Origin: Shewanella vesiculosa
GTDB taxonomy: Bacteria > Pseudomonadota > Gammaproteobacteria > Enterobacterales > Shewanellaceae
Assembly: GCF_021560015.1 (NCBI RefSeq)
Contig: NZ_CP073588.1
Location: 4,014,501-4,078,500 of the forward strand
Direction of reading: 5' to 3'
DNA length: 64,000 nucleotides
A program made the translations under genes and the position numbers. Below the pieces are notes generated by a model. The model saw only the letters and a list, made by a program, of their open reading frames with translations, was not told where the DNA came from and did no database searches. Below, one piece after another: positions 937 through 21,054 of this stretch. Every line of letters starts with the position of its first letter. Positions within the stretch are counted from its first letter, which is position 1.

Positions 937-1146
937 GCGAGTGTTCCTTAGGTTGAAGGGCGTATAGGGTTTTTATGGCGGCTATTTTACCTGCATTAAA
1001 CGGGTTTGCCACGGGAAAGGGTGAGTTGAAATAGGCTTTTTTGTTATGCGAACAATCTTTGGGTAGTTTAGCAATATCTTGTTCAAGACTTTGTGAGGTT
1101 AATCAGGCAAAATTCATTTCCTAAATAGTGTTTGGAATAACAACAA

Positions 1147-2115
1147 TTGAACAGCGAACAAGAAAATATTAATAACCGTTTGGGGCTGATATTCGTGTCT
1201 ATTGCGGTATTTTTCTGGGGTATTTTGCCTATTGCGTTAAAGCTATCCGGTGGTTTTATTACCCCAGTTACCCTGACTTGGTTTCGGTTTGTCATGGCAT
1301 TAGTGGTGACCTTGTTAATTCAATGGCGCTTAGGTGCATTACGCCAATTTGTAGGACTGCCGGCAGCGATATGGATGAAATTGGTATTAGCTGGGGTATT
1401 GTTGATGTGCAACTACGTATCGTTTGTATATTCATTGGGCTATTTAGCCCCAGGCACTGCGCAGCTTAATTTTCAAACCGCACCGTTTTTTTTAGCCTTT
1501 GGCGGGGTGCTGTTTTTTAAAGAGCGCTTTAATGCATTTCAACTGAGTTGTTTTGCCACTCTAGGATTGGGGATGTTGATGTTTTTCCATCCACAGCTGG
1601 ATTTAAACCAAGCCAGCGATCATCAGGTATTGATTGGCATTATGATTGTGCAATTTTCGGTGATGTCGTGGACCAGTTATGCATTATTGCAGAAATCGGT
1701 AAGTCAGCGGTTATCACCCAGTAATGTGCTGTTATTTATTTACGCATTAGGCATTGTGCTTATGGCGCCATTTAGTGATTTTAGTCAGTTTGAAGCAATG
1801 ACATTAAACCAATGGTGGATCGTCCTGTTTTGTGGTGCCAACACCTTGATTGCATATGGCTGTTTTGGTCAAGCAATGCAATATTGGCCCACGGCACAAG
1901 TCAGTGCCATGTTGGCATTAACACCGGTATTGAGTTTTACTGCGACAGAAGTTGTGGTCAATCTTGGTTGGTGGAGCGGGGTATTTGCCGGTGCCGATAT
2001 TGATGTGTTGTCATTTGCTGGCATCGTTATGATTGTGTGTTCGGTGTTTGCCGTGCAAATTGTACCCTTGTATCAAAAGCGTAAGCAGGCCAAAGCGTTC
2101 AGGACTGTACTATAG
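1147..2115 (+). CDS. EamA/DMT-family inner-membrane transporter
   Basis: A predicted metabolite exporter of the drug/metabolite transporter superfamily, substrate unknown. The 322-residue protein is almost entirely hydrophobic with about ten membrane segments. It shows the two-fold EamA repeat: the first half begins LIFVSIAVFFWG and the second VLIGIMIVQFSVMSW. The N-terminal hydrophilic stretch and the basic C-terminal tail (KRKQAK) are probably cytoplasmic. The frame is closed by a stop at 1138, so the TTG at 1147 is the first usable start, with only a weak ribosome binding site. The family call is secure; the substrate cannot be told from sequence. Confidence 0.85.
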   Translation: MNSEQENINNRLGLIFVSIAVFFWGILPIALKLSGGFITPVTLTWFRFVMALVVTLLIQWRLGALRQFVGLPAAIWMKLVLAGVLLMCNYVSFVYSLGYLAPGTAQLNFQTAPFFLAFGGVLFFKERFNAFQLSCFATLGLGMLMFFHPQLDLNQASDHQVLIGIMIVQFSVMSWTSYALLQKSVSQRLSPSNVLLFIYALGIVLMAPFSDFSQFEAMTLNQWWIVLFCGANTLIAYGCFGQAMQYWPTAQVSAMLALTPVLSFTATEVVVNLGWWSGVFAGADIDVLSFAGIVMIVCSVFAVQIVPLYQKRKQAKAFRTVL

Positions 2116-2138
2116 TACTTTAGTGATACGGATTATCA

Positions 2139-2365
2139 CTAGGGTCGCTTCGCTGCTAGGGCGGACTGCGTCCTGCTAGAAAATGATAACAAGCGAACGC
2201 TGCGCTCACGGATAAAACGGTCTAGCGCCTAATCTCTCTCGTCATCTCTCTCGTCATCGCTTGCTATCTCAGGAATAGGGACAGCTTCGCTGCTAAGATT
2301 TTATAGCATCTAGCAGCGTAGCGATCTAGGCTCTTGCTATAGCATCTAGCCGTGTAGCGACCTAG
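2139..2365. repeat. Cluster of CTAG-bounded imperfect repeats
   Basis: Three 20-21 bp units begin and end with CTAG: 2139-2159, 2310-2329 and 2346-2365. The last two share the pattern CTAGC-N-G-N-GTAGCGA-Y-CTAG. The first is the same motif in the opposite orientation (GGTCGCTTCGCTG core). A partial copy, GCTTCGCTGCTA, lies near 2284-2295. The stretch between the EamA gene and the deaD terminator has no credible ORF, so this is intergenic repeat DNA. Whether it is dispersed genome-wide cannot be seen from one window. Confidence 0.6.
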
Positions 2366-2483
2366 AACCTAGAAATAGTGGGAATAACCATTTTCCTTAA
2401 TCATCCTCCCACCTAATGGTAATAGGCAGGTTGATGGGTATTAATTATTTTCAAACTTATTTTGTAGAATAGAAACTAAAAAC

Positions 2484-2511
2484 AAAAATGGAGCCCTTAG
2501 GCTCCATTTTT
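2484..2511 (-). terminator. Rho-independent terminator of deaD
   Basis: A perfect 12-bp stem (2484-2495 with 2500-2511) and a CTTA loop lie about 20 bases past the deaD stop. The minus strand reads GGAGCC, loop, GGCTCC, then a T run. Because A and T runs flank both sides it could also work on the plus strand. Confidence 0.88.
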
Positions 2512-2531
2512 TGTGTCATTCAACTGAATGA

Positions 2532-4421
2532 TTAACCGTTGTCACGTGGCTTACGTGGACGACGTTCTGCACTTGCAGGGCGGTCACTAGCCGGACGATC
2601 ACCCGCTGGGCGGTCAGTACGTGGACGGTCACTACGAGCACGATCACTACGTGGACGACGTGGAGCGCCTGCGCCGCGAGTCGTGTCAGCGAACACTTCA
2701 TCACCCGCTTCACGAATGTTTAAAGGACGACCACAAACACGCACTTTTCTTAGGTGTGAAAGGATGTCTTTAGGCATTCCGTCTGGTAAATCAACTGTTG
2801 TGACTTGATCAAACAATTGGATTTGACCAATGAAACGGCTGTCGATGTTTGCTTCGTTAGCAATTGCACCAACGATGTTACCTACACCAACACCATTTTC
2901 ACGACCTACATCGATAACATAACGATTCATTTTCACGTCTGGGTTATCTTTTAAGCCTTCTGCATCACCAAAGCTGTTTGGTGCTGGACGGCTGCTACGC
3001 TCGCCACGGTCACTGCGTTCACGACGTGGACGATCGCCACGGTCGCTATTGCGGTCACCACGGTCGCTACTACCACGTTCGTCACGTGAATCACGTTGAC
3101 GCTCGGTAATAGTCGGTAACTGTAGTGGACGTTCTTGCTGTACTTGTTGTAACAAAGCAGCAGCCAGTAAATCGGTATCAACTTCAAGTTGTTGACATAA
3201 TTCTGCGACAGCATTTTTCATGAAATCTAAGTCACCGTTGATGGTTTCTTGGATTTGCTCGCCTAAACGAGATAAACGACGCTCTGCAACTGATTCAGGG
3301 CTAGGTACTTTCATTGGCGAAATACGGCTGTTTGTAGCACGTTCGATAGTGCGTAACATGCGCATTTCACGATTGGTTACAAATAGAATTGCCATACCAG
3401 TACGACCAGCACGACCAGTACGACCGATACGGTGTACATAGGCTTCTGAATCATAAGGAATATCGTAGTTTACTACGTGACCAATACGTTCAACGTCTAG
3501 ACCACGAGCCGCAACGTCAGTCGCGATTAAAATATCTAACTTGCCGCGCTTAAGCTGCTCTACAGCACGCTCACGAGCTTGCTGATTCATGTCACCATGT
3601 AATGGCGATGAAGCATAACCACGGGCTTCTAATTTTTCTGCTAATTCAACACAGCTGTTACGGGTACGAACGAAGATGATAATACCTTCAGTATTTTCAA
3701 CTTCTAAAACACGTACTAACGCTTCTAGTTTATTGTGTTGTGATACTTGCACATAACGTTGGTCAATAGACTCAACTGTTGTCTGGCTAGACGCTATGCT
3801 GATATTCACTGGGTTAGATAAGTGCTTAGCTGCAACGCGCTTAATTTGCTCAGGCATAGTCGCTGAGAATAATGCAAGTTGGCTATCAGCAGGCTTGTGC
3901 TCTAATACCCATTCGATATCGTCGATGAAGCCCATTTTTAGCATTTCATCGGCTTCGTCTAATACTAACGCTTTTAAGCTATCTAGTTTTAATGTGCCAC
4001 GACGCATGTGATCCATTACACGACCTGGAGTACCAACAATCACTTGTGGTCCACGCTTAAGGGCGTTTAATTGTTGTTGCATGCTTTGACCACCGTAAAT
4101 CGGTAGTACGTGGAAGCCTTTCATGAATTTGGCATAACTACCAAATGCTTCGGCAACTTGAACCGCTAATTCGCGGGTTGGAGCTAACACCAAAATCTGT
4201 GGAGCATTGATTTTCATGTCGATTTTGTTTAGTAAAGGCAGGGCAAATGCGCCTGTTTTACCAGTACCAGTTTGTGCTTGACCGATAATATCTTTACCAG
4301 CCATAAGCGGGTCGATACTCGCAGCTTGAATTGGAGTTGGGTTTTCATAACCTAACTCGTCAAGCGAACGCAACAAAGACTCAGACAGGCCGAGTTCGCG
4401 GAAAGTTCTTTCAGATGACAT
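2532..4421 (-). CDS. deaD: ATP-dependent DEAD-box RNA helicase DeaD (CsdA)
   Basis: Cytosolic RNA helicase that unwinds structured RNA during ribosome assembly and cold adaptation. The 629-residue protein shows the ordered motifs: Q motif (PTPIQ, about 28-32), Walker A AQTGTGKT (49-56), PTRELA, DEAD near 155, SAT, then in the second RecA lobe ARGLD and HRIGRTGRAGR. A DbpA-like RNA-binding domain follows (KMNRYVIDVGRENGVG region), and the tail is rich in RSDR/DRP repeats, as in long DeaD proteins. The coding repeats near 2560-2680 reflect that tail. A strong promoter about 100 bases upstream leaves a long leader, which fits the long cold-shock leader of E. coli csdA. Confidence 0.96.
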   Translation of the reverse strand: MSSERTFRELGLSESLLRSLDELGYENPTPIQAASIDPLMAGKDIIGQAQTGTGKTGAFALPLLNKIDMKINAPQILVLAPTRELAVQVAEAFGSYAKFMKGFHVLPIYGGQSMQQQLNALKRGPQVIVGTPGRVMDHMRRGTLKLDSLKALVLDEADEMLKMGFIDDIEWVLEHKPADSQLALFSATMPEQIKRVAAKHLSNPVNISIASSQTTVESIDQRYVQVSQHNKLEALVRVLEVENTEGIIIFVRTRNSCVELAEKLEARGYASSPLHGDMNQQARERAVEQLKRGKLDILIATDVAARGLDVERIGHVVNYDIPYDSEAYVHRIGRTGRAGRTGMAILFVTNREMRMLRTIERATNSRISPMKVPSPESVAERRLSRLGEQIQETINGDLDFMKNAVAELCQQLEVDTDLLAAALLQQVQQERPLQLPTITERQRDSRDERGSSDRGDRNSDRGDRPRRERSDRGERSSRPAPNSFGDAEGLKDNPDVKMNRYVIDVGRENGVGVGNIVGAIANEANIDSRFIGQIQLFDQVTTVDLPDGMPKDILSHLRKVRVCGRPLNIREAGDEVFADTTRGAGAPRRPRSDRARSDRPRTDRPAGDRPASDRPASAERRPRKPRDNG

Positions 4422-8807: not shown

Positions 8808-10175
8808 ATGGCCAGTAATGGACTGTCGGGTATGGAGAAAAAGGTCGCATTTTCGTTAGCCAGTGTGTTTGGCTTACGCATGATGGGCTTGTTTATGATT
8901 ATGCCTGTCTTCGCGCTGTATGGTCAGCATTTAGAAGGTTTCTCGCCGCTTTGGGTTGGTATTGCCATTGGTGCCTACGGATTAACTCAAGCTTTTTTAC
9001 AGATCCCTATGGGGATTTTGTCCGACAAATACGGACGAAAGCCAATTATTCTTGGTGGTTTAGTCTTGTTTGCCATTGGGAGTTTAATTGCTGCATCGTC
9101 TGACCATATTTACGGTGTGGTGTTTGGCCGCGCAGTACAGGGTATGGGCGCCATTGCTGCGGCAGTGCTAGCACTTGCTGCCGACTTAACCCGAGACGAA
9201 CAACGTACCAAAGTCATGGCCATTATCGGCATGTGCATTGGTTTTTCATTCGCCTTGTCATTATTGGTTGGACCGATTGTAGCGCAATACATGGGCTTAA
9301 CTGGGCTGTTTTTGTTAACTGCAGTGTTAGCGGTATTGGGGATGTTGATAGTGCAGTTTTTTGTGCCTAATCCTATTCGCCATGCGCCTAAAGGCGATAC
9401 CGTCGCGACACCGACAAAACTTAAACGTATGTTGCAAGACCCACAGCTGTTTCGCTTAGATGCTGGGATTTTTATTCTGCATTTAGTGCTCACCGCTGTG
9501 TTTGTTGCATTGCCGCTCGATTTAGTTGATGCCGGCTTAGTGAAAGAAAAACATTGGATGCTGTATTTCCCCGCTTTTGTTGGTGCCTTTTTCTTAATGG
9601 TGCCATTAATCATTATTGGGGTTAAACGCAACAATACTAAAACCATGTTTCAAATCGCGTTGATCATCATGATGGTATCACTGGCGGCGATGGGGCTTTA
9701 TGCCAACAACCTCTGGGTGTTAAGTGGCGCAGTGGTATTATTTTTTACCGGTTTTAATTACCTCGAAGCATCATTGCCGAGTTTAATTGCTAAGTTTTGT
9801 CCTGTTGGCGATAAAGGGTCGGCTATGGGCGTGTATTCAACCAGCCAGTTTTTAGGTGCATTCTGTGGCGGCATGTTAGGCGGCGGAGCCTATCAACTTG
9901 TTGGCGCTTCTGGGGTGTTTTTTGTCGCATTAGGGCTAATGTGTGTGTGGTTATTGTTAACTATAGGCATGCAAAAACCTGTGTTATTGAAAAGCTATAC
10001 GCTTGAAGCAACAGTAAAAGATAAATCCGACGCACAAAATATGGCCAGTAGTTTGTCGCAACTAATCGGTGTTGTCGAGGCCATAGTCGTGCTTGAAGAT
10101 AAAGTGGCTTATTTAAAGGTCGATGATAAATTCAATTTAAGCGAAGCGCGAGCTGTGTTAGGCTCTGTGAATTAG
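8808..10175 (+). CDS. yajR: MFS exporter of the YajR type
   Basis: Inner-membrane major facilitator protein, probably a proton-coupled exporter of unknown substrate. The 455 residues carry about twelve membrane segments and the loop 2-3 signature GILSDKYGRK (MFS motif A). A soluble C-terminal domain of about 65 residues (from the KSYTLEATV region to the end) matches the YAM domain of E. coli YajR in place and size. An upstream TTG at 8778 is in frame, but GAAGGG sits about seven bases before the ATG at 8808, so I use that start. It is followed by ssb 65 bp downstream. The symbol rests on architecture and is less certain than the family. Confidence 0.85.
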   Translation: MASNGLSGMEKKVAFSLASVFGLRMMGLFMIMPVFALYGQHLEGFSPLWVGIAIGAYGLTQAFLQIPMGILSDKYGRKPIILGGLVLFAIGSLIAASSDHIYGVVFGRAVQGMGAIAAAVLALAADLTRDEQRTKVMAIIGMCIGFSFALSLLVGPIVAQYMGLTGLFLLTAVLAVLGMLIVQFFVPNPIRHAPKGDTVATPTKLKRMLQDPQLFRLDAGIFILHLVLTAVFVALPLDLVDAGLVKEKHWMLYFPAFVGAFFLMVPLIIIGVKRNNTKTMFQIALIIMMVSLAAMGLYANNLWVLSGAVVLFFTGFNYLEASLPSLIAKFCPVGDKGSAMGVYSTSQFLGAFCGGMLGGGAYQLVGASGVFFVALGLMCVWLLLTIGMQKPVLLKSYTLEATVKDKSDAQNMASSLSQLIGVVEAIVVLEDKVAYLKVDDKFNLSEARAVLGSVN

Positions 10176-10240
10176 ATCGTGTTGATCGTACAGCTTAGTA
10201 TTCAGATAAAGTAAACAGATAAAAATCTCAGGAGATTTCG

Positions 10241-10951
10241 ATGGCCAGTCGTGGTGTGAATAAAGTAATTTTGGTAGGTAACTTAGGTAAAGATCCTGAG
10301 GTTCGTTACATGCCAAACGGCAACGCCGTAGCCAACTTTACTATAGCGACAAGTGAGTCGTGGAAAGACCAGCAAGGTCAAATGCAAGAACGTACTGAGT
10401 GGCATAACATTGTGATGTATCGCCGTCTTGCAGAAATTGCTGGCGAGTACTTAAAAAAAGGCTCTAAAGTTTATTTAGAAGGCAAATTGCAAACCAGTAA
10501 ATGGCAAGATCAGGCTACCGGTCAAGACCGTTACAAGACTGAAATTAACGCGATGGAAATGCAAATGTTAGACAGCCGCAACTCTGGTGATAACAGCGGT
10601 GGTGGTCAATATCAGGGACAAGGTCAAAGCTCTGGACAAAACATGGGACAACAACAGTCTCGTCCTGCACCGGCTCCTCAAGCTCGTCCGCCACAGGCAC
10701 AATACAACCAAGCAGCACCTGCCACAGGTAATGCAGCTTACCAAGCTCAGCCAAATGCCGGTCAGCAAGGCGGTTATCAGCAACAGGCTGCGCCAGCACA
10801 ACAAGCTGCACCAGCTTACGCACCAAAGCCAGCGGCACCACAGGGTAATTTCCAACCACAAAATGCCCCTGCACAGCGTCCTGCTCCACAGCCACAGCAA
10901 AATTTCACCCCAGATTTAGATGAAGGTTGGGATGACGATATCCCGTTTTAG
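10241..10951 (+). CDS. ssb: Single-stranded DNA-binding protein
   Basis: Coats single-stranded DNA and recruits repair and replication proteins through its C-terminal tip. The first ~110 residues are the OB fold (begins [20 protein letters not shown]). A long Gln/Pro/Ala/Gly-rich linker follows (about 115-220), then the acidic tip [10 protein letters not shown], the conserved docking peptide. The 236-residue length is long for SSB because of the linker. AGGAG precedes the ATG. A near-identical copy of the last codons and stop lies 7 kb downstream at 17975-18011. No LexA box was found upstream. Confidence 0.97.
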
Positions 10952-10955
10952 GACA
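10919..10955 (+). repeat. 37-bp direct repeat, copy A (3' end of ssb)
   Basis: This stretch covers the last ten ssb codons, the stop and four following bases. It matches 17975-18011 at 36 of 37 positions in the same orientation. The two copies bound the block with ycdX, the DUF6500 gene and the mla/partner-switch operon, like the direct repeats left by insertion at the 3' end of a gene. Confidence 0.85.
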
Positions 10956-10983
10956 CATGATTTATCGTGTTAACTAAACCTTT

Positions 10984-11009
10984 AAGGCCTGCTTTTGCAG
11001 GCCTTTTTT
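10984..11009 (+). terminator. Rho-independent terminator of ssb
   Basis: A perfect 9-bp stem (10984-10992 with 10997-11005) has a TTTT loop and is followed by a T run. It lies 32 bases past the ssb stop. It can also serve the converging ycdX gene. Confidence 0.9.
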
Positions 11010-11065
11010 ATGTCAGATAACTAAGATCGCTGTGCCTGTCACAGTGCCGTTTGGGATAGGATCAG

Positions 11066-12348: not shown

Positions 12349-12618
12349 TCATCTGCAGCACTTATACGCTATGGGTCATCATTAATTCAATAAGCCATCT
12401 CGATAGTAAGCCTTCTGATGCCTTGATTGATGAGCGGTTGCATATTGTGAACTCAATGATCGAATAAATTATTTTTGAACGATCAATCAAATTGTATTTA
12501 TCGTTTGCATGGTTTTAATGTTATATTTTCAATCTTGAGCACAATTAGCTGAGCTAAATATAATGCTCACTACCAATATAGGTAGCAGATTTTTTCAATT
12601 TTAAAGCTGGAGTTATGA

Positions 12619-13416
12619 GTGAAAGTGATGGGGCGATTAGTTGTGATTGTAGGCACTTTACTCTTGTTAAGTGGGTGTGCTAGTACCTCAACACCGGGCG
12701 ATCCGTTCGAAGCGGTTAATCGAAAAAGCTGGGATTTTAATTACCAGATTATGGATAAATATGCGTTAAAACCAGCAGCTCAAGGCTATGAAAACGTTCC
12801 TCAGCCTATCCGACAAGGTGTGACTAACCTTTTATCAAATCTCAGTGAACCGCTTTACGCATTAAATAACCTCTTGCAATGGAAAGTGACTGACAGTGGC
12901 AGTAGTGTGTTACGTTTTGTCGTCAACACAACAATCGGCTTAGTCGGTATTTTTGATCCTGCTACAGACATGGGACTGGCTAAAAAAGAAGAAACATTCG
13001 CACAAACCTTTGGTGTTTGGGGGATCGGTAATGGACCATTCATTATGTGGCCTGTTTATGGGGCCAGCACGGCACGTAATACCGTCGGTGATTTTGTTGA
13101 TATTTTTGTCTATCCCTTGTCTATTCTGACATTTGAGCAAAGAGCGGGAAAATTTGTGCTTGAAGGGTTAGACAGTAGGATTGAATTTCAGCAATATGAA
13201 CCTATCTTAGATAAGTCATTAGATCCTTATGGCTATGTTAAAGATGTCTATCTACAGCGAGATGCGCACTTAGTCAGTGACGGAAAAGTAGATGAGGCTG
13301 ATACAGAAGAATTTGATCTAGAGTTCGATGACGAACTATTAGATGATGAGCTATTAGATGAAGCTCCAGTAGATAAAAAAATAGGCGATCAAACTGATAT
13401 AAAAAATACGGACTAG
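12619..13416 (+). CDS. mlaA: Outer-membrane lipid-asymmetry lipoprotein MlaA (VacJ)
   Basis: MlaA sits in the outer membrane and removes phospholipids that stray into the outer leaflet, handing them to periplasmic MlaC. The N-terminus is a lipoprotein signal with lipobox LLSGC (Cys20). The body has the family pattern DPFEAVNRKSWDFNY, PQPIRQGVTNLLSNLSEP and a Gly-rich middle (GVWGIGNGPF). After about residue 225 there is a strongly acidic tail that is not part of the core domain. The GTG at 12619 has GGAG six bases upstream. It is the first gene of the run ending in the RsbU-like phosphatase; the next start is three bases after its stop. E. coli mlaA is not linked to mlaFEDCB. Confidence 0.92.
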   Translation: MKVMGRLVVIVGTLLLLSGCASTSTPGDPFEAVNRKSWDFNYQIMDKYALKPAAQGYENVPQPIRQGVTNLLSNLSEPLYALNNLLQWKVTDSGSSVLRFVVNTTIGLVGIFDPATDMGLAKKEETFAQTFGVWGIGNGPFIMWPVYGASTARNTVGDFVDIFVYPLSILTFEQRAGKFVLEGLDSRIEFQQYEPILDKSLDPYGYVKDVYLQRDAHLVSDGKVDEADTEEFDLEFDDELLDDELLDEAPVDKKIGDQTDIKNTD

Positions 13417-13419
13417 CCC

Positions 13420-13821
13420 ATGTCAAACATCAAAACGTTTTCATCTTGTACAAGTGAATTAAAAAATATTCGCCAATTTGTGGAACATGCTTGCCAAGAC
13501 TTTCCCTTTCGCGAAGATAAAGTTAATGAAATCGTATTAGCCGTTGATGAGGCTTGCGCCAATGTGATTCGTCATGGTTACCACATGTCGAAAAAAGGCT
13601 GTTTAGAGATAGAGATCAGCAGTGACCATGAACATGCGCGATTTGTGATTAAAGACGTGTGTTCGCAGATTACTGATAAACAATTAATACCGCCAGAAAA
13701 CAATTTATGTGAACCGGGTGGCCTAGGCCTTTGCTTGATCCATTATGTGGCAGAAACCGTAAGATTGCTCCCACATAAAGGTAAAGGTAATTGGTTAGAA
13801 TTGACGGTTAAATTTGAGTGA
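13420..13821 (+). CDS. RsbW/SpoIIAB-like serine kinase (anti-sigma-type ATPase)
   Basis: A single HATPase_c_2 domain of 133 residues, the kinase of partner-switching modules, which phosphorylates a STAS antagonist. The N box DEACANVIRHGY (about 43-54) supplies the magnesium Asn48, and the G2 box GGLGLCLIHYVAE is clear. The G1 box reads KDVCSQ, so the usual glycine after Asp-x is Cys. It lies between mlaA and a STAS gene (six bases apart), so the STAS protein is its likely substrate. No sigma factor gene is nearby. The output could be the Mla ATPase itself rather than a sigma factor; that is inference. Confidence 0.85.
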   Translation: MSNIKTFSSCTSELKNIRQFVEHACQDFPFREDKVNEIVLAVDEACANVIRHGYHMSKKGCLEIEISSDHEHARFVIKDVCSQITDKQLIPPENNLCEPGGLGLCLIHYVAETVRLLPHKGKGNWLELTVKFE

Positions 13822-13827
13822 TATGAA

Positions 13828-14157
13828 ATGAATATTGAAATTGAGCAACAAAATAATTATCAAGTCGTTAAGCTTTATGGTGAAGTCGATTTGAGCAATT
13901 CACGCAGCATTAAACTCGACATCATCAAATTAATTAAGAGTAAAAATAACGTTATTGTCGATTTTACCCATCTGCAATATATCGATAGCTCAGGAATGGC
14001 GTCATTAGTTGAGGCATTTAATGAGGCCAAAGAAAACCATACTGAGTTTCATATTGTTGGTGCTAATGGTTCGCCGCTTCAAGTATTGCAATTAACCCGC
14101 TTAAACACAGTGTTTAACTTAGCGGATTCAGTAGGTGCTGTAACTCACAATGGTTAA
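13828..14157 (+). CDS. STAS-domain protein, MlaB-like or anti-sigma antagonist
   Basis: A 109-residue single STAS domain. The conserved loop is VDFTHLQYIDSSGM; Ser55 aligns with the phosphorylated serine of SpoIIAA/RsbV. In E. coli the gene in the mla cluster is mlaB, whose STAS protein binds and stabilises MlaF but is not known to be phosphorylated. Here the protein could do both jobs: its gene follows an RsbW-like kinase and its last eight bases overlap the MlaF gene. The overlap suggests translational coupling and a matched subunit ratio. The STAS fold is secure; the dual role is inference. Confidence 0.87.
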   Translation: MNIEIEQQNNYQVVKLYGEVDLSNSRSIKLDIIKLIKSKNNVIVDFTHLQYIDSSGMASLVEAFNEAKENHTEFHIVGANGSPLQVLQLTRLNTVFNLADSVGAVTHNG

Positions 14158-14947
14158 GCCTATTATTACCGTAGAGCATTTGTTTGCCCAGTATGGTGAC
14201 ACCCAAGTACTTAAGGATGTCAATTTAGAGGTCAACCCCGGAGAGATTCTGGTGGTGATAGGCGGTTCTGGCTCAGGTAAAAGTACTTTACTCAATCATA
14301 TGCTTGGGCTTAAAACACCGGTTTCTGGCACTATCATGATTGATGGTGTGAATATTTTTACGGCTAAAAGTAAGCAATTACGTCATTTACGTCAAAAAAT
14401 GGGTGTCGCTTTTCAAGGTGGCGCACTGCTGAGCTCGTTGACTGTGGCCGATAATGTCAGGTTACCCTTAGAGCAGAATACTTCTTTAGACACCCAAACT
14501 ATCGATATTATGGTGCGGATGAAGCTTGAACTCATGAATATGGCCGGCACTGGTCATATGATGCCCTCTGAATTATCGGGTGGCATGTTAAAGCGTGCCG
14601 GCTTAGCTAGAGCGGTTATCATGGACCCTAAGTTACTATTTTTTGATGAACCGTCGGCAGGACTTGATCCGACTACCGCAGTAGAGTTGGATGAGCTTAT
14701 TTTAACCTTAAGAGATGCTATGAACATGACCATAGTGGTGGTGACTCATGAGCTTGAAAGTGTGTTTAAAATTGCCGATCGTGTGGTGGTATTGTTTAAC
14801 GGCGAAGTCGTGGCAAATGGCACGGTTGACGAGATTAAAAATTCGCCAGATGAACGTATTCAAAATATGATTAACCGCCAACCTAATACTTACCGAGACG
14901 ATGGCGAGGTTTACTTCAATCGACTGTTAGATAAGGACAATATTTAA
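14150..14947 (+). CDS. mlaF: Phospholipid ABC transporter ATPase MlaF
   Basis: Cytoplasmic ATPase of the inner-membrane MlaFEDB complex. Visible motifs are Walker A GGSGSGKS (38-45), a Q-loop (AFQGGALL), signature LSGGMLKRAGLARA, Walker B LLFFDEPSAGLDP and the switch His in VVTHELES. The signature LSGGM rather than LSGGQ is normal in this family. The length of 265 is typical. It overlaps the STAS gene by eight bases and ends in an ATG/TAA one-base overlap with mlaE. Confidence 0.93.
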   Translation: MVKPIITVEHLFAQYGDTQVLKDVNLEVNPGEILVVIGGSGSGKSTLLNHMLGLKTPVSGTIMIDGVNIFTAKSKQLRHLRQKMGVAFQGGALLSSLTVADNVRLPLEQNTSLDTQTIDIMVRMKLELMNMAGTGHMMPSELSGGMLKRAGLARAVIMDPKLLFFDEPSAGLDPTTAVELDELILTLRDAMNMTIVVVTHELESVFKIADRVVVLFNGEVVANGTVDEIKNSPDERIQNMINRQPNTYRDDGEVYFNRLLDKDNI

Positions 14948-15741
14948 TGACCGCCTTATTTAATGCGATCAGTAACCTGGGCGCCACAACACGAAAAAAC
15001 ATCGACAGTTTAGGCCTAGCGACAATGTTTTTACTGCGCATTGTTAGCAGCCTATTTACTGGGCTGGTGTCATTTAAACAAGTGCTCAAGCAAATATACT
15101 TTATCGGTAATCGGTCTTTAATCGTTATTATTGTCGCAGCATTATTTACTGGCATGGTTGTGGCGCTGCAATTTTACGATACCTTAGTGCGCTTTGGATC
15201 GGTGGATTTGTTGGGTTCGGCAGTGGCCTTGAGTTTGATTAAAGAACTGGGCCCGGTAATGACAGCATTGATGCTGATTGCGCGAGTAGGCTCTGCTACC
15301 TGCTCTGAAATTGGTATTATGCGCAATGAGCAGCAGTTTGATGCACTTGATTGCATGGCGATTAACAGTTACCGCTATGTTATGTTGCCACGTTTACTTG
15401 CTGCGTTAATTTGTGTGCCTATTCTAACGGCAGTGTTCGACCTGGTTGGGATAAGCGGTGGTTATATCGTTGGCGTTCACATCCAAGGCGAAAACCCCGG
15501 TGCATATATTCAAGGTGTGCTGGATACGATTAGCTTTAAAGATGTGCTGGTTGGTCAAATAAAGTCGTTGGTATTTGGTTTATTTATTATGTGGATACCT
15601 TTGTATTACGGCTTTTACTTACACCTGAATCAAAAAAATATGGGCGCTGAAGGCGTCAGTAATGGCACCACTCAGGCAGTGGTAATGAGTGCAATTATTA
15701 TGCTATTTAGTGACTACATCGTTAGCTCATTAGCGCTATAA
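14947..15741 (+). CDS. mlaE: Phospholipid ABC transporter permease MlaE
   Basis: Integral permease of the MCE-type lipid transporter. The 264-residue protein has about five membrane segments and the family stretches SLIKELGPVMTALMLIARVGSA and EQQFDALDCMAI, which contact MlaF. The start overlaps the mlaF stop by one base. The gene is intact and of normal length. With MlaD it forms the path through the inner membrane. Confidence 0.93.
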   Translation: MTALFNAISNLGATTRKNIDSLGLATMFLLRIVSSLFTGLVSFKQVLKQIYFIGNRSLIVIIVAALFTGMVVALQFYDTLVRFGSVDLLGSAVALSLIKELGPVMTALMLIARVGSATCSEIGIMRNEQQFDALDCMAINSYRYVMLPRLLAALICVPILTAVFDLVGISGGYIVGVHIQGENPGAYIQGVLDTISFKDVLVGQIKSLVFGLFIMWIPLYYGFYLHLNQKNMGAEGVSNGTTQAVVMSAIIMLFSDYIVSSLAL

Positions 15742-15753
15742 CTCGAGGTAACA

Positions 15754-16203
15754 ATGAAAAACAATTACGTCAATTTTCTCGTCGGCCTGTTTGTGCTGTG
15801 CGGGATTGGAGCCTTGGTATTTATGTCTGTTACCATTGGCGGGGCATCGATTTCTAATAGCGGTCAATATACCTTAGTCGCTAAATTTGAAAACTCTTCA
15901 GGTTTAAAAGAGGGGGCTTTTGTTGAAATGTCCGGTGTAAGGGTTGGGTTAATTAAATCGATTAAGTACGACCCTAAAGCGTATGAATCTGTGGTTACAG
16001 TGTCATTAGACAACAGTATTACCGTGCCAGATGATTCCGTCGCGTCTATTCGTACATCTGGGATTATCGGTGACAGGTTTCTTAAAATATCCAGCGGTGG
16101 ATCAGACATCAATATGGAAGATGGTGATGAGTTTATTGATACAGAGTCATCAATTAGCATCGAAGAATTAGTTAGTAAATATATGTTTAGTCAGGATAAA
16201 TAA
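15754..16203 (+). CDS. mlaD: MCE-domain lipid-transport protein MlaD
   Basis: Anchored periplasmic MCE protein that forms a hexameric ring over MlaE. Residues about 7-28 form the single membrane anchor (FLVGLFVLCGIGALVFMSV), followed by the MCE domain with YTLVAKFENSSGLKEGAFVEM and SGVRVGLIKSI, then TSGIIGDRFLKIS. The 149-residue length is slightly shorter than the E. coli protein (about 183), with a reduced C-terminus. Its stop overlaps the mlaC start by one base, and GAGGT precedes its ATG. Confidence 0.92.
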   Translation: MKNNYVNFLVGLFVLCGIGALVFMSVTIGGASISNSGQYTLVAKFENSSGLKEGAFVEMSGVRVGLIKSIKYDPKAYESVVTVSLDNSITVPDDSVASIRTSGIIGDRFLKISSGGSDINMEDGDEFIDTESSISIEELVSKYMFSQDK

Positions 16204-16778
16204 TGAAATCGATAATAGCTTTAATCATAATGTTAGTGATGCCGTCTGTAGCTTTAGCAGCACAAGGACCGACGGATCGGGTTAAATTGGGTGTGTCAGA
16301 TATCATTAGTATTGCTTCTGATAGTGCTTTGTCTGTTGAACAAAAAAAACAATCGCTCAGTGATGTGATTGAAAAGCATGTGGATATTCAAGCGTCTGCG
16401 CAACGCGTATTAGGTAAGTATTGGAGAGAAGCAAGCGATAGCGAAAAGCGTCAATTTATGGTGTTGTTAAAAGGCGTGCTAGTCGATACTTATATTGTAT
16501 TGTTAGAAAAATATGACAATGAAACCGTTGCTTACACTGGCGAGACCATCAAGAAAAAAGTCTATGCAACGGTAGATACCGACATACATACCAAAGACAA
16601 TATCATTCCAGTTTCTTACCAGCTTTATCAGCGCAATGATGAATGGAAAATTTACGATTTTGTAGCGGAAGGTTTATCAATGATCCGTACCTTTAGTAAA
16701 GACTATCAAAGTACCTTAAAGAAAAGTGGTGTTTCTGGTTTAAATGAAGCCCTTGCTGCTAAATTAGCCCAAAAGTAA
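16203..16778 (+). CDS. mlaC: Periplasmic phospholipid-binding protein MlaC
   Basis: Soluble periplasmic carrier that moves phospholipid between MlaA and MlaD. It has a cleavable signal peptide (MKSIIALIIMLVMPSVALA) and the MlaC/Ttg2D domain, with VEKHVDIQASAQRVLGKYW-type and GLSMIRTFSKDYQSTLK-type stretches. The length of 191 is close to the family norm. It overlaps mlaD by one base and is followed by the RsbU-like gene after ten bases, which ties the phosphatase to the same transcript. Confidence 0.9.
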   Translation: MKSIIALIIMLVMPSVALAAQGPTDRVKLGVSDIISIASDSALSVEQKKQSLSDVIEKHVDIQASAQRVLGKYWREASDSEKRQFMVLLKGVLVDTYIVLLEKYDNETVAYTGETIKKKVYATVDTDIHTKDNIIPVSYQLYQRNDEWKIYDFVAEGLSMIRTFSKDYQSTLKKSGVSGLNEALAAKLAQK

Positions 16779-16788
16779 GGTCTTCCCT

Positions 16789-17947
16789 TTGAGTATAGAC
16801 AGAGCATTAGCTAATAATATCATTGATGAAACCTTGTGGTTTAAAACCACCTTGGCGCTCACGTTAACTGAGTTTAATTATTACCTCATTAAGAAAAATG
16901 GCCAAATTAGCTGTAATTTTTCATCCTTGTGTGATCAACATTACACTAACCTGTATAAACAGTTTCAAGCATTGTCGTTACAGCACAGTACCATTGAGAT
17001 ATTGCCATTAAATGATGATGGCAAGACGTCTTGGGCACTGCCTTTTGGTAAAGATTCGAGCTTATTTGACTGTATCATTTTGCTCGATTTGCCTGCCAAT
17101 GTAGAGTCGCATCATGTTAGTTCATTGTATTTCAAGCTTTTATACCAGCTAAAAAGTTTTCAATTCTCTGAAGCATCTTCACAGCTCAATGCCGCTCAAG
17201 TATGGATCCGCGATGAGATAGAAGAGATTACCCGCTTACAACAGCTGATGTTGCCAGACAAAGGTATTGAACTCAGCTCCGTTAAAATGGCCTACACCTA
17301 CAAAGCAATGAAAGGCGCCGGTGGCGATTATTTAGATATTGTCGATCTCGGTAAAAGTCGTCCTGACATTCAAGGTGATATAGGAATGATTATTGCCGAC
17401 GTATCGGGGCATGGCCCAGCCGCTGCCGTAGAGACGGCAATGATAGATGCGATTTTACGCACCTTTGAGCCGAAGAACTTATCCAGTAGCTCTTCAGAAG
17501 TACTCAATTATATCAATCAACACTTTTTCACTAAAAAGCCCCGCGGCAGTTTTTTAACTGCCACAGTGCTTCGTTATAATTGTAAAGACAAAGAACTCAT
17601 TTATGCCAATGCTGGCCATCCGCATGCGTACTTGAAAAAAAGCCAATCGACTGGTTGCTCTAGATCAGGGCGGGATACCGATAGGTGTACTGCGTGAGCA
17701 AAATTGGGATACCTACAGGGTTAGCGTGGATGTTGGTGATATTTTGTTTGTTTATACTGATGTTGTCATCGAAACTCAAAATGCCCAAAAAGAGCTATTC
17801 GGCTTTGATCGCTTAGAAAAAGCCATTAGTGCCGCCCCCGATGAACCCGAAGCTATGCTGGAGTATCTTGAACAGCAAATGAAACTATTTTGCGGTTTTT
17901 CAGAGTTTCAGGATGACTTAACCATGTGTGCTATCCAGTTTATTTAA
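16789..17947 (+). pseudogene. RsbU/SpoIIE-type PP2C phosphatase, frame broken at an A7 run
   Basis: The first frame (TTG at 16789, AAGG about eight bases upstream) gives an unrecognised N-terminal region of about 140 residues, then a PP2C domain beginning LQQLMLPDKGIE. Metal-site motifs are GAGGDYLDI and IADVSGHGPAAA. After AGHPHAYLKK the frame runs into unrelated residues and stops at 17697. Dropping one A from the seven at 17635-17641 restores the reading (RLVALDQGGIPIGVL, then GDILFVYTD) to the family ending DDLTMCAIQF at 17947. As the partner of the kinase and STAS proteins it should dephosphorylate the STAS serine. It may be an inactivated gene, a sequencing error, or a slippage-decoded gene. 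Confidence 0.85.
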
Positions 17948-18049: not shown

Positions 18050-18081
18050 AAAAAGCCCTGAGTTAACGCTCAGGGCTTTTT
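18050..18081. terminator. Bidirectional terminator between the mla/rsbU operon and hmp
   Basis: An 8-bp GC-rich stem (18055-18062 with 18069-18076) is flanked by AAAAA and TTTTT, extending it to 13 bp. It lies between converging genes and suits both strands. Confidence 0.88.
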
Positions 18082-18105: not shown

Positions 18106-19287
18106 TTAAGCGCTTAATGCTTCAGTTGGGCCAAAGAATTCATAATGAATTTGGTTTTCTGGTATACCTAAGCTGGTGGCGATAGCTAATGCTGCTTTCA
18201 TAAAGCCAGTAGGGCCAAGTAGGTAAAATTCTACATCGCGGTCTACAGGCAGTTGCTCCGCAATCAATGATGCATCGATGAAGCCTGTCGCATGAGGTTG
18301 GCAATATTGTCCTGGTTGGCTGTAAACATACAACGGCTTGATGTGGTCATGGGTTAAGGCAAGTTGATCAACATGGTGTTTAAACGCATGAACATCACTA
18401 TTAAGAGCCGCATGAATAAAGCGAATATCACGGCCTGAACCAGCTTCAGTATTGAGCATACTAATTGCAGGCGTAATGCCCACACCGCCTGTGAGTAAAA
18501 TTAATGGTTTGGTATTTTTGCGTAAAGTAAAATCGCCACTGGGGGCACGCAATTTCACTTTATCACCTAACTGAATGTGGTTATGTAAGTGATTTGATAC
18601 CACACCATTAGGTTCACGCTTGACGCTAATTCTTAAGTAATCTTTGCCTGCCGCGTCAGATAAACTGTAGTTACGACGCATTGATACGCCATCGATATCA
18701 TCAAATACTAAGGTTAGAAATTGACCGGCTTCAAAGCTTGGCAAACTTTTATCATCAAATGGTTGAAAGTAGAATGAGGTAATTACTGAACTTTCATCTA
18801 CACGTTTGACTACAATAAACTCACGCTCGCCGCGCCAGCCACCAGTTTTCTGTTCGTTCTGTGTGTAAATTGACTCTTCAGCCGCAATTAATATGTTGGC
18901 TAACTGACCGTAAGCTTTGGCCCAAGCATCAATTACTTCGTCTGTTGCAGCATCGCCGAGTACGGCTTTAATGGCCTGTAATAAACAGCTGCCAACCGCA
19001 TCATATTGATGCGGCAATATACCTAGTGCGGTATGCTTTTGGACAATTTTACTGACCGCAGCGCTTAAATTACCTAGCTCATCAATATTGGCACCATAAG
19101 CAATCACAGCGTTAGCCAGTGCTTTAGGTTGAGTGCCTTTAGCTTGGTTAGTTTGGTTGAAATAAGGCAATACTTCAGGATGCTGGGCAAACAGTAATGG
19201 ATAGAAATGGCTGGTAATGTCATTGGCGTAAAGTTGTAACGCGGGGACAGTGGCCTTAATAATTTGAACAGTTGCAGTGTCTAACAT
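18106..19287 (-). CDS. hmp: Flavohemoglobin, nitric oxide dioxygenase
   Basis: Converts nitric oxide to nitrate with O2 and NAD(P)H in the cytosol. Residues 1-140 are the globin domain, including the proximal His in VQKHTALGILPHQY. It is followed by a ferredoxin-reductase FAD domain (RNYSLSD) and an NAD domain (LTGGVGITPAISML). The C-terminal EFFGP stretch is conserved. The length of 393 matches E. coli Hmp (396). AGGA precedes the ATG by seven bases. It is divergent from norR, with NorR-type sites, an FNR-like site and a sigma-54-like promoter between, so NO-dependent control is very likely. Confidence 0.96.
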   Translation of the reverse strand: MLDTATVQIIKATVPALQLYANDITSHFYPLLFAQHPEVLPYFNQTNQAKGTQPKALANAVIAYGANIDELGNLSAAVSKIVQKHTALGILPHQYDAVGSCLLQAIKAVLGDAATDEVIDAWAKAYGQLANILIAAEESIYTQNEQKTGGWRGEREFIVVKRVDESSVITSFYFQPFDDKSLPSFEAGQFLTLVFDDIDGVSMRRNYSLSDAAGKDYLRISVKREPNGVVSNHLHNHIQLGDKVKLRAPSGDFTLRKNTKPLILLTGGVGITPAISMLNTEAGSGRDIRFIHAALNSDVHAFKHHVDQLALTHDHIKPLYVYSQPGQYCQPHATGFIDASLIAEQLPVDRDVEFYLLGPTGFMKAALAIATSLGIPENQIHYEFFGPTEALSA

Positions 19288-19473: not shown

Positions 19474-21054
19474 ATGAATATTGTTCCCTTTATCGACATT
19501 GTAGAAGACTTAAATCGTGACTTGATAAAATCGGAGCGTTACTTGCGGCTGATTTTAGCGATTCAACGCGCCATTCCGTGCGATGTTGTAGCCTTACTGA
19601 AGCTTAAACAGGATCATTTGGTGCCTGTAGCTGTGGTGGGCTTAAAGCAAGAAGCGTTAGCGCGACAATTTTCGATTAACCACCATCCACGCTTGCAGCA
19701 AATTTTAACTAACCCACACATTACCCGCTTCGATGCCGACTCAACACTGCCCGATCCCTATGACGGTTTAGTCGATGATGGCAGTGAACAATTGCACGTG
19801 CATGACTGCATGGGCAGCACCATTTATATCGATGGTAAAGCCTGGGGCGTTTTAACCTTGGACGCTATGCAAGCAGGTAGTTTTGATTCGCTTAATCCAA
19901 CCGAAACCCGTGCTTATATTGCTGCTGTGGCCGCTGCGATTAGTACCAGTGAACATATTGAAGCGTTAGAAATTCAAGTTGAACGTAATCATCAAGTGGC
20001 ACAGTGCATGTTAGGGAGTGCAGGGCCGTCAAGTATTATTGGTAACAGTGGCGCAATTACGGATTTATTGTCAGAGATAAATACTGTTGCCGCCAGCGAT
20101 CTATCGGTATTAATTACCGGGGAAACTGGTGTGGGTAAAGAGTTGGTTGCCAAAAGCATTCATCAACAATCACGTCGCAGCGAGCAACCGTTAGTGCAAA
20201 TTAACTGTGCAGCACTGCCAGAAAGCATCGTTGAAAGTGAACTCTTTGGTCATGTAAAAGGTGCTTATTCTGGTGCGGTAAGCGATCGTCGGGGCCGCTT
20301 TGAGCTTGCCGATGGCGGCACATTATTTTTAGATGAAGTGGGTGAATTACCGTTAGCGGTACAAGCTAAGTTATTGCGTGCATTGCAAAATGGTGAAATT
20401 CAGCGTGTTGGTAGCGACAATATTATTGTGGTGGATGTCAGAATTATTGCTGCAACTAATCGAAATTTGCAGCTAGAAGTTAAAGAAGGTAGGTTTAGAG
20501 CTGACTTGTATCATCGTTTAAGTGTTTATCCACTGCCTGTGCCAGCATTACGAGATCGCGGTAAAGACGTTATTTTATTGGCAGGCTATTTTTTAGAAAA
20601 AAGCCAACATCAACTTGGGGTCGCGAAACTGAGGTTGCAACAAAGCGCGATTAATCAATTAGCCCAATATCATTGGCCTGGCAATGTGCGTGAGTTAGAG
20701 CACTTGCTTAGTCGCGCTGCCTTAAGGGCCATTAGTGAACAAGGTCGTCATGCTCGTATTATTAGTATTAGCCCTGTGCATCTGGGGTCAGAGTTTATGG
20801 CGAGCCATTCTGAAGCACCACAGCAAACCGCGATGGAGAATCAATCCACCAATGATTCAACGGCTACGTTATCCCAAGTGATAACCCAAGGACTGCGTGA
20901 TGCCACCGATGAGTATCAGCGGCAAGTCATACAAACAGTATTCGTGACTGAGCGAGGTAACTTAGCTGCAGTTGCAAGGTCCTTAAAGCTAGATAGAAGT
21001 AATTTAATTCGTACCATGCGTCGTTTAGCGCTTGATCCTAATACGGGTGAGTAA
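19474..21054 (+). CDS. norR: Nitric oxide-sensing sigma-54 activator NorR
   Basis: Enhancer-binding protein that activates sigma-54 promoters when an N-terminal GAF-domain iron centre binds NO. Residues about 1-180 are the GAF region. The AAA+ domain has Walker A GETGVGKE (about 215-222) and Walker B LFLDEVGELP. The sigma-54 contact loop is GAYSGA (263-268) instead of GAFTGA. RFRADLYHRLSVYPLPVP follows, with the arginine finger. The C-terminus is a Fis-type helix-turn-helix (LAAVARSLKLDRSNLIRTM). At 526 residues it matches NorR (504 in E. coli). It is divergent from hmp, whose promoter region holds its likely sites. Confidence 0.92.
   Translation: MNIVPFIDIVEDLNRDLIKSERYLRLILAIQRAIPCDVVALLKLKQDHLVPVAVVGLKQEALARQFSINHHPRLQQILTNPHITRFDADSTLPDPYDGLVDDGSEQLHVHDCMGSTIYIDGKAWGVLTLDAMQAGSFDSLNPTETRAYIAAVAAAISTSEHIEALEIQVERNHQVAQCMLGSAGPSSIIGNSGAITDLLSEINTVAASDLSVLITGETGVGKELVAKSIHQQSRRSEQPLVQINCAALPESIVESELFGHVKGAYSGAVSDRRGRFELADGGTLFLDEVGELPLAVQAKLLRALQNGEIQRVGSDNIIVVDVRIIAATNRNLQLEVKEGRFRADLYHRLSVYPLPVPALRDRGKDVILLAGYFLEKSQHQLGVAKLRLQQSAINQLAQYHWPGNVRELEHLLSRAALRAISEQGRHARIISISPVHLGSEFMASHSEAPQQTAMENQSTNDSTATLSQVITQGLRDATDEYQRQVIQTVFVTERGNLAAVARSLKLDRSNLIRTMRRLALDPNTGE

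Follow-up and report, generated by a model that had tools for sequence, protein, structure and literature searches.

In the E. coli ATP-binding cassette (ABC) transporter MlaFEDB a STAS protein, MlaB, is encoded with the ATPase MlaF, and its control has been discussed in papers which are represented here, as all literature cited below, by excerpts. According to these, the phosphomimetic substitution T52E lowers the binding of MlaB to MlaF, the complex purified without MlaB lacks MlaF, and the authors predict that a phosphate at Thr52 would be repulsive (PMC7367683). Phosphorylation of MlaB was raised as a possibility, with no kinase named in the excerpts (PMC7367683, PMC5016091), and the setting of the active MlaB level was called an open question (PMC7367683). 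The operon described here lies in a stretch of 64,000 nucleotides of the Shewanella vesiculosa genome (contig NZ_CP073588.1, positions 4,014,501 to 4,078,500; referred to as the window) and joins an Mla-type transporter to a kinase, a STAS protein and a phosphatase. From the genes and the predicted models we infer, with a probability of roughly 0.7, that phosphorylation of the STAS protein switches this second Mla-type ABC lipid transporter by partner switching.

In analogy to E. coli MlaFEDB, the operon comprises the MlaF, MlaE, MlaD, MlaC and MlaA families, a STAS gene encoded with the ATPase, the tail motif of MlaF and a Ser/Thr residue at the equivalent STAS position. Unlike in E. coli, the STAS protein is of the full-length SpoIIAA type with a DSSG motif and is accompanied by a kinase and a phosphatase, and the genome additionally holds a canonical operon that encodes a MlaB of its own. 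The three switch proteins belong to the same families as those of the Bacillus switches RsbU-RsbV-RsbW and SpoIIE-SpoIIAA-SpoIIAB and share the same presumed phosphosite, whereas the output of the Bacillus systems is a sigma factor.

A second Mla-type operon with its own kinase and phosphatase

The genome holding the window consists of one contig of 4.78 Mb. As outlined in Table 1, eight genes, mlaA, kinase, STAS, mlaF, mlaE, mlaD, mlaC and phosphatase, follow one another on the + strand between 12619 and 17947 in the list of open reading frames, with successive spacings of +3, +6, -8, -1, +12, -1 and +10 bases from mlaA to the phosphatase, and every product, including both phosphatase pieces, scores above its curated Pfam cut-off. 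The gene order, strand, spacing of at most 12 bases and families given by an initial annotation of this DNA agree with these coordinates and with Pfam. MlaA, MlaC, MlaD, MlaE and the ABC ATPase were identified by Pfam and MlaF by its similarity to E. coli MlaF. Since a canonical mlaFEDCB operon with a MlaB of 99 amino acids (aa) and another mlaA lie elsewhere in the genome (two MlaA matches in all), the window operon is a complete, separate second set; the two MlaF proteins share 38% identity. The initial annotation had rightly called it a phospholipid-transport operon with respect to the families and had overlooked the second system beside the canonical one. Movement of phospholipids between the membranes is the predicted function, and the retrograde direction was an assumption of that annotation. 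A kinase for the canonical MlaB was considered as well and discarded, as the 10 kb surrounding the canonical operon contain no match to the window kinase, STAS protein or phosphatase. Three further loci (L208, L209, L210) belong to genomes combining a kinase-linked transporter with a canonical-type mla operon that has its own small STAS-like protein (D-S-A-G).

The kinase carries what we take to be the N-box Glu and Asn, the G1 Asp and the G2 glycines of the RsbW/SpoIIAB type, and these residues (E44, N48, D79, G100, G101 and G103) are conserved in all 77 mla-linked kinases. The G1 glycine is substituted, by Cys81 in the window kinase and mostly by Ala in the other mla-linked kinases. Of the nine PF13581 matches of the genome, the window kinase alone is a small protein standing by itself, and the remaining eight belong to frames of 432-1041 aa.

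Six STAS matches were found in the genome. The frames that contain them measure 111 aa for the window protein, 109 aa for MlaB and 189-595 aa for the others. Within the segment D53-S54-S55-G56 the counterpart of the RsbV and TM1442 phosphosite position and of Thr52 of E. coli MlaB is, by alignment, Ser54, and the STAS protein thus has a Ser at the SpoIIAA phosphosite, the numbering of which we assume. The phosphoserine had previously been placed at Ser55, and these alignments point to Ser54 instead. Conservation cannot choose between them because both serines are conserved (Ser55 in 44 and Ser54 in 43 of the 44 sequences of alignment A3), so that the predicted phosphosite is Ser54 by alignment; the DSSG motif is present in 59/59 mla-linked STAS proteins outside the genus. 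The predicted model aligns over residues 1-109 with SpoIIAA and has extra elements at 97-99 and 102-107. It is therefore not of the short form of E. coli MlaB, which has no fifth strand and last helix, and on the basis of the model the protein may function in the manner of MlaB without being classed as MlaB.

An MlaB-type role of the STAS protein is further indicated by the location of its gene in the transporter operon together with the C-terminal tail of MlaF, which retains a motif (YFNRLL) like that of the tail docking at the MlaF-MlaB interface in E. coli (PMC7367683). The motif was found in none of three weaker ABC ATPases, which is a thin control.

The phosphatase is split in this assembly into two pieces of 302 and 73 aa in different frames, which are the two SpoIIE-type matches of the genome and thus represent a single gene. 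In 7/7 relatives examined the frame is whole (385 aa), and the library protein P0019, which has 14 members on 72 contigs, the longest contig being from a genome other than that of the window, represents the whole 385-aa form, with 99% identity across 94% of the query. The RsbU-like family assigned earlier is confirmed by SpoIIE Pfam matches on both pieces, and the single continuous frame assumed with it is not, given the break at a run of A. In the same assembly a break near a run of C divides a second gene, at L024:1200-2100 (genome contig C1, about 2596000) and by eye coding for a SulP transporter, between two frames; the STAS frame of 189 aa is part of this gene. Because this gene is split too, the phosphatase frameshift is likely a sequencing error, a real mutation being less probable. 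In the latter case the phosphatase would be lost, the STAS protein would stay phosphorylated and the switch would be dead in this strain, which would add to the proposed switch rather than oppose it. We hold this to be unlikely: the frame is broken in a one-contig assembly, which speaks for it, but the break sits in a homopolymer, the whole form P0019 is 99% identical and the split SulP-like gene fits homopolymer sequencing error. The N-terminal domain of the phosphatase gave no Pfam match on the window piece. The predicted model of P0019 exhibits strands, helices and a long helix ahead of the PP2C domain, and the 50 Foldseek matches listed for it are phosphatase or RssB chains.

Recurrence of the module and weighing of the proposed switch

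Within the genus the kinase was found in 8/129 genomes, and MlaE of the window type (E<=1e-90) was found in the same eight. The kinase stands beside mla in 8/8 of them, as the initial annotation had asked of close relatives, and all eight genes occur in the same order in the 7/7 genomes other than that of the window. No genome of the genus sample has this transporter without the switch or the switch without this transporter.

For the wider search an alignment of 18 kinases (A1) was used as query at E<=1e-8, which matched in 13/394 genomes of the order, 60/369 of the class and 40/398 of the phylum. The loci were read with hidden Markov models (HMMs) built from the window operon, its relatives and the canonical operon; the starts were chosen mechanically, and gene gaps are therefore approximate. 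MlaE or MlaF was found beside the kinase at 5/10 order loci outside the genus, at 52/62 class loci besides that of the window, in 32/34 families, and at 12/28 phylum loci (28 of 37 new matches were examined). Adjacency by chance is ruled out by the co-occurrence in the genus, the order kept in 7/7 genomes and the recurrence throughout the class.

The arrangement kinase-STAS-mlaF-mlaE-mlaD-mlaC-phosphatase was observed in Shewanella and its relatives in the order. The commonest arrangement is phosphatase-kinase-STAS-mlaE-mlaF-long MCE protein, followed at L119 by an ABC_trans_aux lipoprotein; others are phosphatase-kinase-STAS-mlaE-mlaD-mlaA-mlaC with mlaF on the opposite strand and phosphatase-kinase-STAS-mlaF-mlaE-mlaD-mlaA-mlaC. 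A phosphatase match nearby, or a kinase frame of fusion length, was found at 47 of the 59 mla-linked loci outside the genus. A domain scan of ten proteins confirmed phosphatases with GAF (L119, L136) or HDOD (L126, L131) domains and two phosphatase-kinase fusions (L126, L136). In the kinase tree, which is built on few columns and has 41 of 105 inner branches open, the arrangement labels require 19 changes as compared to 52.9 in shuffles, and the Shewanella-type kinases possibly form one group (support 34 only).

In the phylum sample the kinases of family f225 are more distant and have a looser link to MCE genes (10/24 f225 loci). In genomes of this family a frame of 225 aa occupies the expected MlaF place of an MlaE-MCE operon (L165:9350-10024, without Pfam match, and L161:9214-9888), followed by a TPR protein, the kinase and the STAS protein. 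At L136 a protein combining a receiver with SpoIIE and HATPase_c_2 domains (9295-11019) is encoded upstream of the fused phosphatase-kinase beside the transporter, a layout which we take to resemble CrsR/HsbR. At L119 a CHASE2-guanylate cyclase gene (1146-3386) adjoins the transporter operon.

Some of the loci lacking an adjacent transporter gene can be described more closely. In five genomes of the order (L082-L086) kinase and STAS genes are adjacent, with no mla genes there, and each genome has one MlaE match (E<=1e-10), 51-56% identical to a kinase-linked MlaE, in an mlaF-mlaE-mlaD operon whose MlaF has the tail motif. No match to two STAS HMMs was found within the 11.5-14.5 kb examined around these mlaFED operons, for which the detached STAS protein is, judged from the scan of these stretches, the obvious candidate for the missing subunit. 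Among the ten class loci lacking an adjacent MlaE or MlaF gene, L112 and L125 stop at contig ends, L143 and L148 hold second kinases of genomes whose other kinase (L131, L104) is mla-linked, L130 and L139 hold two kinases of one genome, neither of them mla-linked, and L113, L116, L121 and L144 are lone loci.

The gene content and order, the conservation, the co-occurrence, the catalytic residues, the predicted STAS fold and the MlaF tail are the data on which the proposed switch is built. The binding of the STAS protein to MlaF and to the kinase, the phosphorylation, the order of events, the direction of the switch and the signal are what we infer from them. Combining the E. coli MlaB data with the classical partner switch gives the simplest model. 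The unphosphorylated STAS protein would bind MlaF much as MlaB does, and MlaF bound in this way would stay assembled with MlaE and MlaD, with its ATPase working. The RsbW-like kinase would phosphorylate Ser54, which is expected to sit centrally in the interface with MlaF, and thereby make the STAS protein release MlaF, so that transport would stop. On a signal, and under the control of its N-terminal domain, the SpoIIE-type phosphatase would strip the phosphate, turning transport on again. The post-translational switch without a sigma factor that had been proposed for this operon is thus the best-supported reading, with the kinase beside mla throughout its carriers in the genus and no Sigma70_r2 gene nearby; the phosphorylation, the contact of STAS protein and MlaF and the effect on transport stay predictions.

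Several points weigh against such a switch. The module is known here from genes and predicted models and occurs in only 8 of the 129 Shewanella genomes, the reading frame of the phosphatase is interrupted in this assembly, and one STAS relative of 44 (P0133) has Cys at position 54. Neither MlaE nor MlaF stands beside the kinase at 5/10 order, 10/62 class and 16/28 phylum loci, and, as the searches started from mla-linked kinases, none of these rates can be carried over to RsbW-like kinases in general. Furthermore, in the excerpted E. coli work deletion of the MlaF tail left the MlaF-MlaB pull-down intact, which makes the tail motif indirect evidence. The complex with MlaB T52A forms, but its ATPase is abolished (PMC5016091), and the phosphosite may therefore do more than gate binding.

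The latter result would fit a switch of reversed sign, in which the STAS protein binds MlaF but phosphorylation, or the hydroxyl group of Ser54, is needed for the ATPase and the phosphatase turns transport off. We consider this quite unlikely in view of the weaker MlaF binding of T52E, the predicted repulsion by the phosphate (PMC7367683) and the SiaC-SiaD pair, in which, within the excerpts, phosphorylation blocks binding to the partner (PMC8457831).

The loci without adjacent MlaE or MlaF would also be expected if the kinase-STAS pair controlled a sigma factor or another regulator and shared nothing but its transcription with the transporter, lipid transport being affected at most indirectly. 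RsbW-like kinases are classically anti-sigma factors, and partner switches acting on RpoS have been reported in gammaproteobacteria (PMC6482189, excerpts). Sigma-factor control was nevertheless discarded as a candidate on the Sigma70_r2 genes of this genome: all ten matches are farther than about 660 kb from the operon (the scan covered this genome and not the neighbours of the other loci), in line with the earlier claim of a switch with no sigma factor involved. The repeated occurrence next to differently arranged MCE transporters in nearly all class families with the kinase (32/34), the conserved MlaF tail, the confinement, within the genus, of window-type MlaE to genomes with the kinase, and the mlaFED operons without STAS match in 5/5 order genomes with detached pairs also argue against it, making a mere co-transcription very unlikely and favoring a switch that acts on the transporter itself.

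Operon layout and flanking signals

The coordinates of the operon and of its flanking signals are collected in Table 1. Promoter-like sites (26 in the region as compared to 16.6 expected from shuffles) and terminator-like hairpins (6 as compared to 4.8) are little above chance. Downstream follow two genes apparently unrelated to the operon, one at 18106-19287, presumably flavohemoprotein-like, and one at 19474-21054, by Pfam a GAF and sigma-54 activator gene, which we take to be NorR-like.

Table 1. Features of the operon and its flanks, in window positions.
Feature	Position	Strand	Evidence
Candidate sigma-70-type promoter 5' of mlaA, TTGAGC-18-TATAAT	12535..12564	+	consensus match only, 10/12
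mlaA, outer-membrane lipoprotein component	12619..13416	+	PF04333, 219 bits
RsbW/SpoIIAB-like serine kinase (HATPase_c_2)	13420..13821	+	PF13581, 79 bits; matches RsbW 6m36_A
SpoIIAA/RsbV-type STAS protein, proposed MlaB-like subunit and phospho-target	13828..14157	+	Pfam STAS, 69.9 bits
Codon of Ser54, first Ser of DSSG	13987..13989	+	alignments; placed from the STAS reading frame
mlaF, ABC ATPase; YFNRLL motif in the C-terminal extension	14150..14947	+	PF00005 (ABC_tran), 110.4 bits; E. coli MlaF 6xbd_I, 169 bits
mlaE, permease	14947..15741	+	PF02405, 238.5 bits
mlaD, MCE protein	15754..16203	+	PF02470, 72 bits
mlaC, periplasmic lipid carrier	16203..16778	+	PF05494, 136.1 bits
SpoIIE/RsbU-type phosphatase, piece 1 (N-terminal domain, helix, start of PP2C domain)	16789..17697	+	PF07228 positions 3-92, 62.2 bits; model of intact P0019
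A run, site of the phosphatase frame break	17635..17641	+	one base different from 7/7 relatives
SpoIIE/RsbU-type phosphatase, piece 2, other frame	17726..17947	+	PF07228 positions 122-191, 41.8 bits
Terminator-like hairpin 3' of the operon	18050..18081	.	13-pair stem, listed for - strand only

Comparison with known systems

Among the matches listed from the open-access literature, with subscription journals and preprints outside the scope, no work links a pair of the RsbW/RsbU type with an Mla or MCE transporter. The statement of the initial annotation that no description was known therefore holds within this literature, although the idea of MlaB phosphorylation had already been published (PMC5016091, PMC7367683, both as excerpts). 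The protein families and the transporter are known; what is new is that a kinase and a phosphatase are encoded with the transporter, a wiring which was not found described.

The recurring pairing of kinase and phosphatase with the transporter suggests an answer to how such transporters are regulated. It is moderately probable that partner switching is a general control of gammaproteobacterial MCE lipid transporters, in which RsbW-like kinases and sensor phosphatases with GAF, HDOD or other domains would set the phosphorylation of a detachable STAS protein and thereby gate the lipid traffic between the membranes rapidly and without transcription. If true, this would represent a hitherto undescribed class of ABC transporter regulation, a lipid-transporting ABC machine would join the outputs of partner switching, and the cell would have a fast control of its outer-membrane lipid make-up, with the sensor domains pointing to the signals. 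As more than 30 bacterial families encode candidate kinases and phosphatases together with the transporter, the question of MlaB regulation becomes directly testable.

The comparison with known systems is based on excerpts of the papers cited. The commonest arrangement, with MlaE, MlaF, a long MCE protein and, at L119, the ABC_trans_aux lipoprotein, resembles the chimeric Mla-Pqi system Mpc of Brucella, in which a STAS domain is likewise tied to the permease, being fused in MpcE; in the present loci, in contrast, the STAS protein is separate and stands beside a kinase and a phosphatase (PMC12436622). In Vibrio fischeri SypE-SypA the STAS protein is likewise the output and is inactivated upon phosphorylation by the kinase, but the SypA target is unknown, kinase and phosphatase are united in one protein and no transporter is involved (PMC10120452, PMC8256260). 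Precedents for a switch acting on an enzyme instead of a sigma factor are SiaABCD, HsbA-HsbD and BgrV-BgrR (PMC8457831). SiaABCD of Pseudomonas aeruginosa, for which threonine phosphorylation is named (PMC7647112), combines, like the module described here, a phosphatase, a kinase and a STAS-like protein that binds an enzyme and activates it when unphosphorylated, with no sigma factor; its output, however, is a diguanylate cyclase and SiaC belongs to DUF1987 (PMC8457831).

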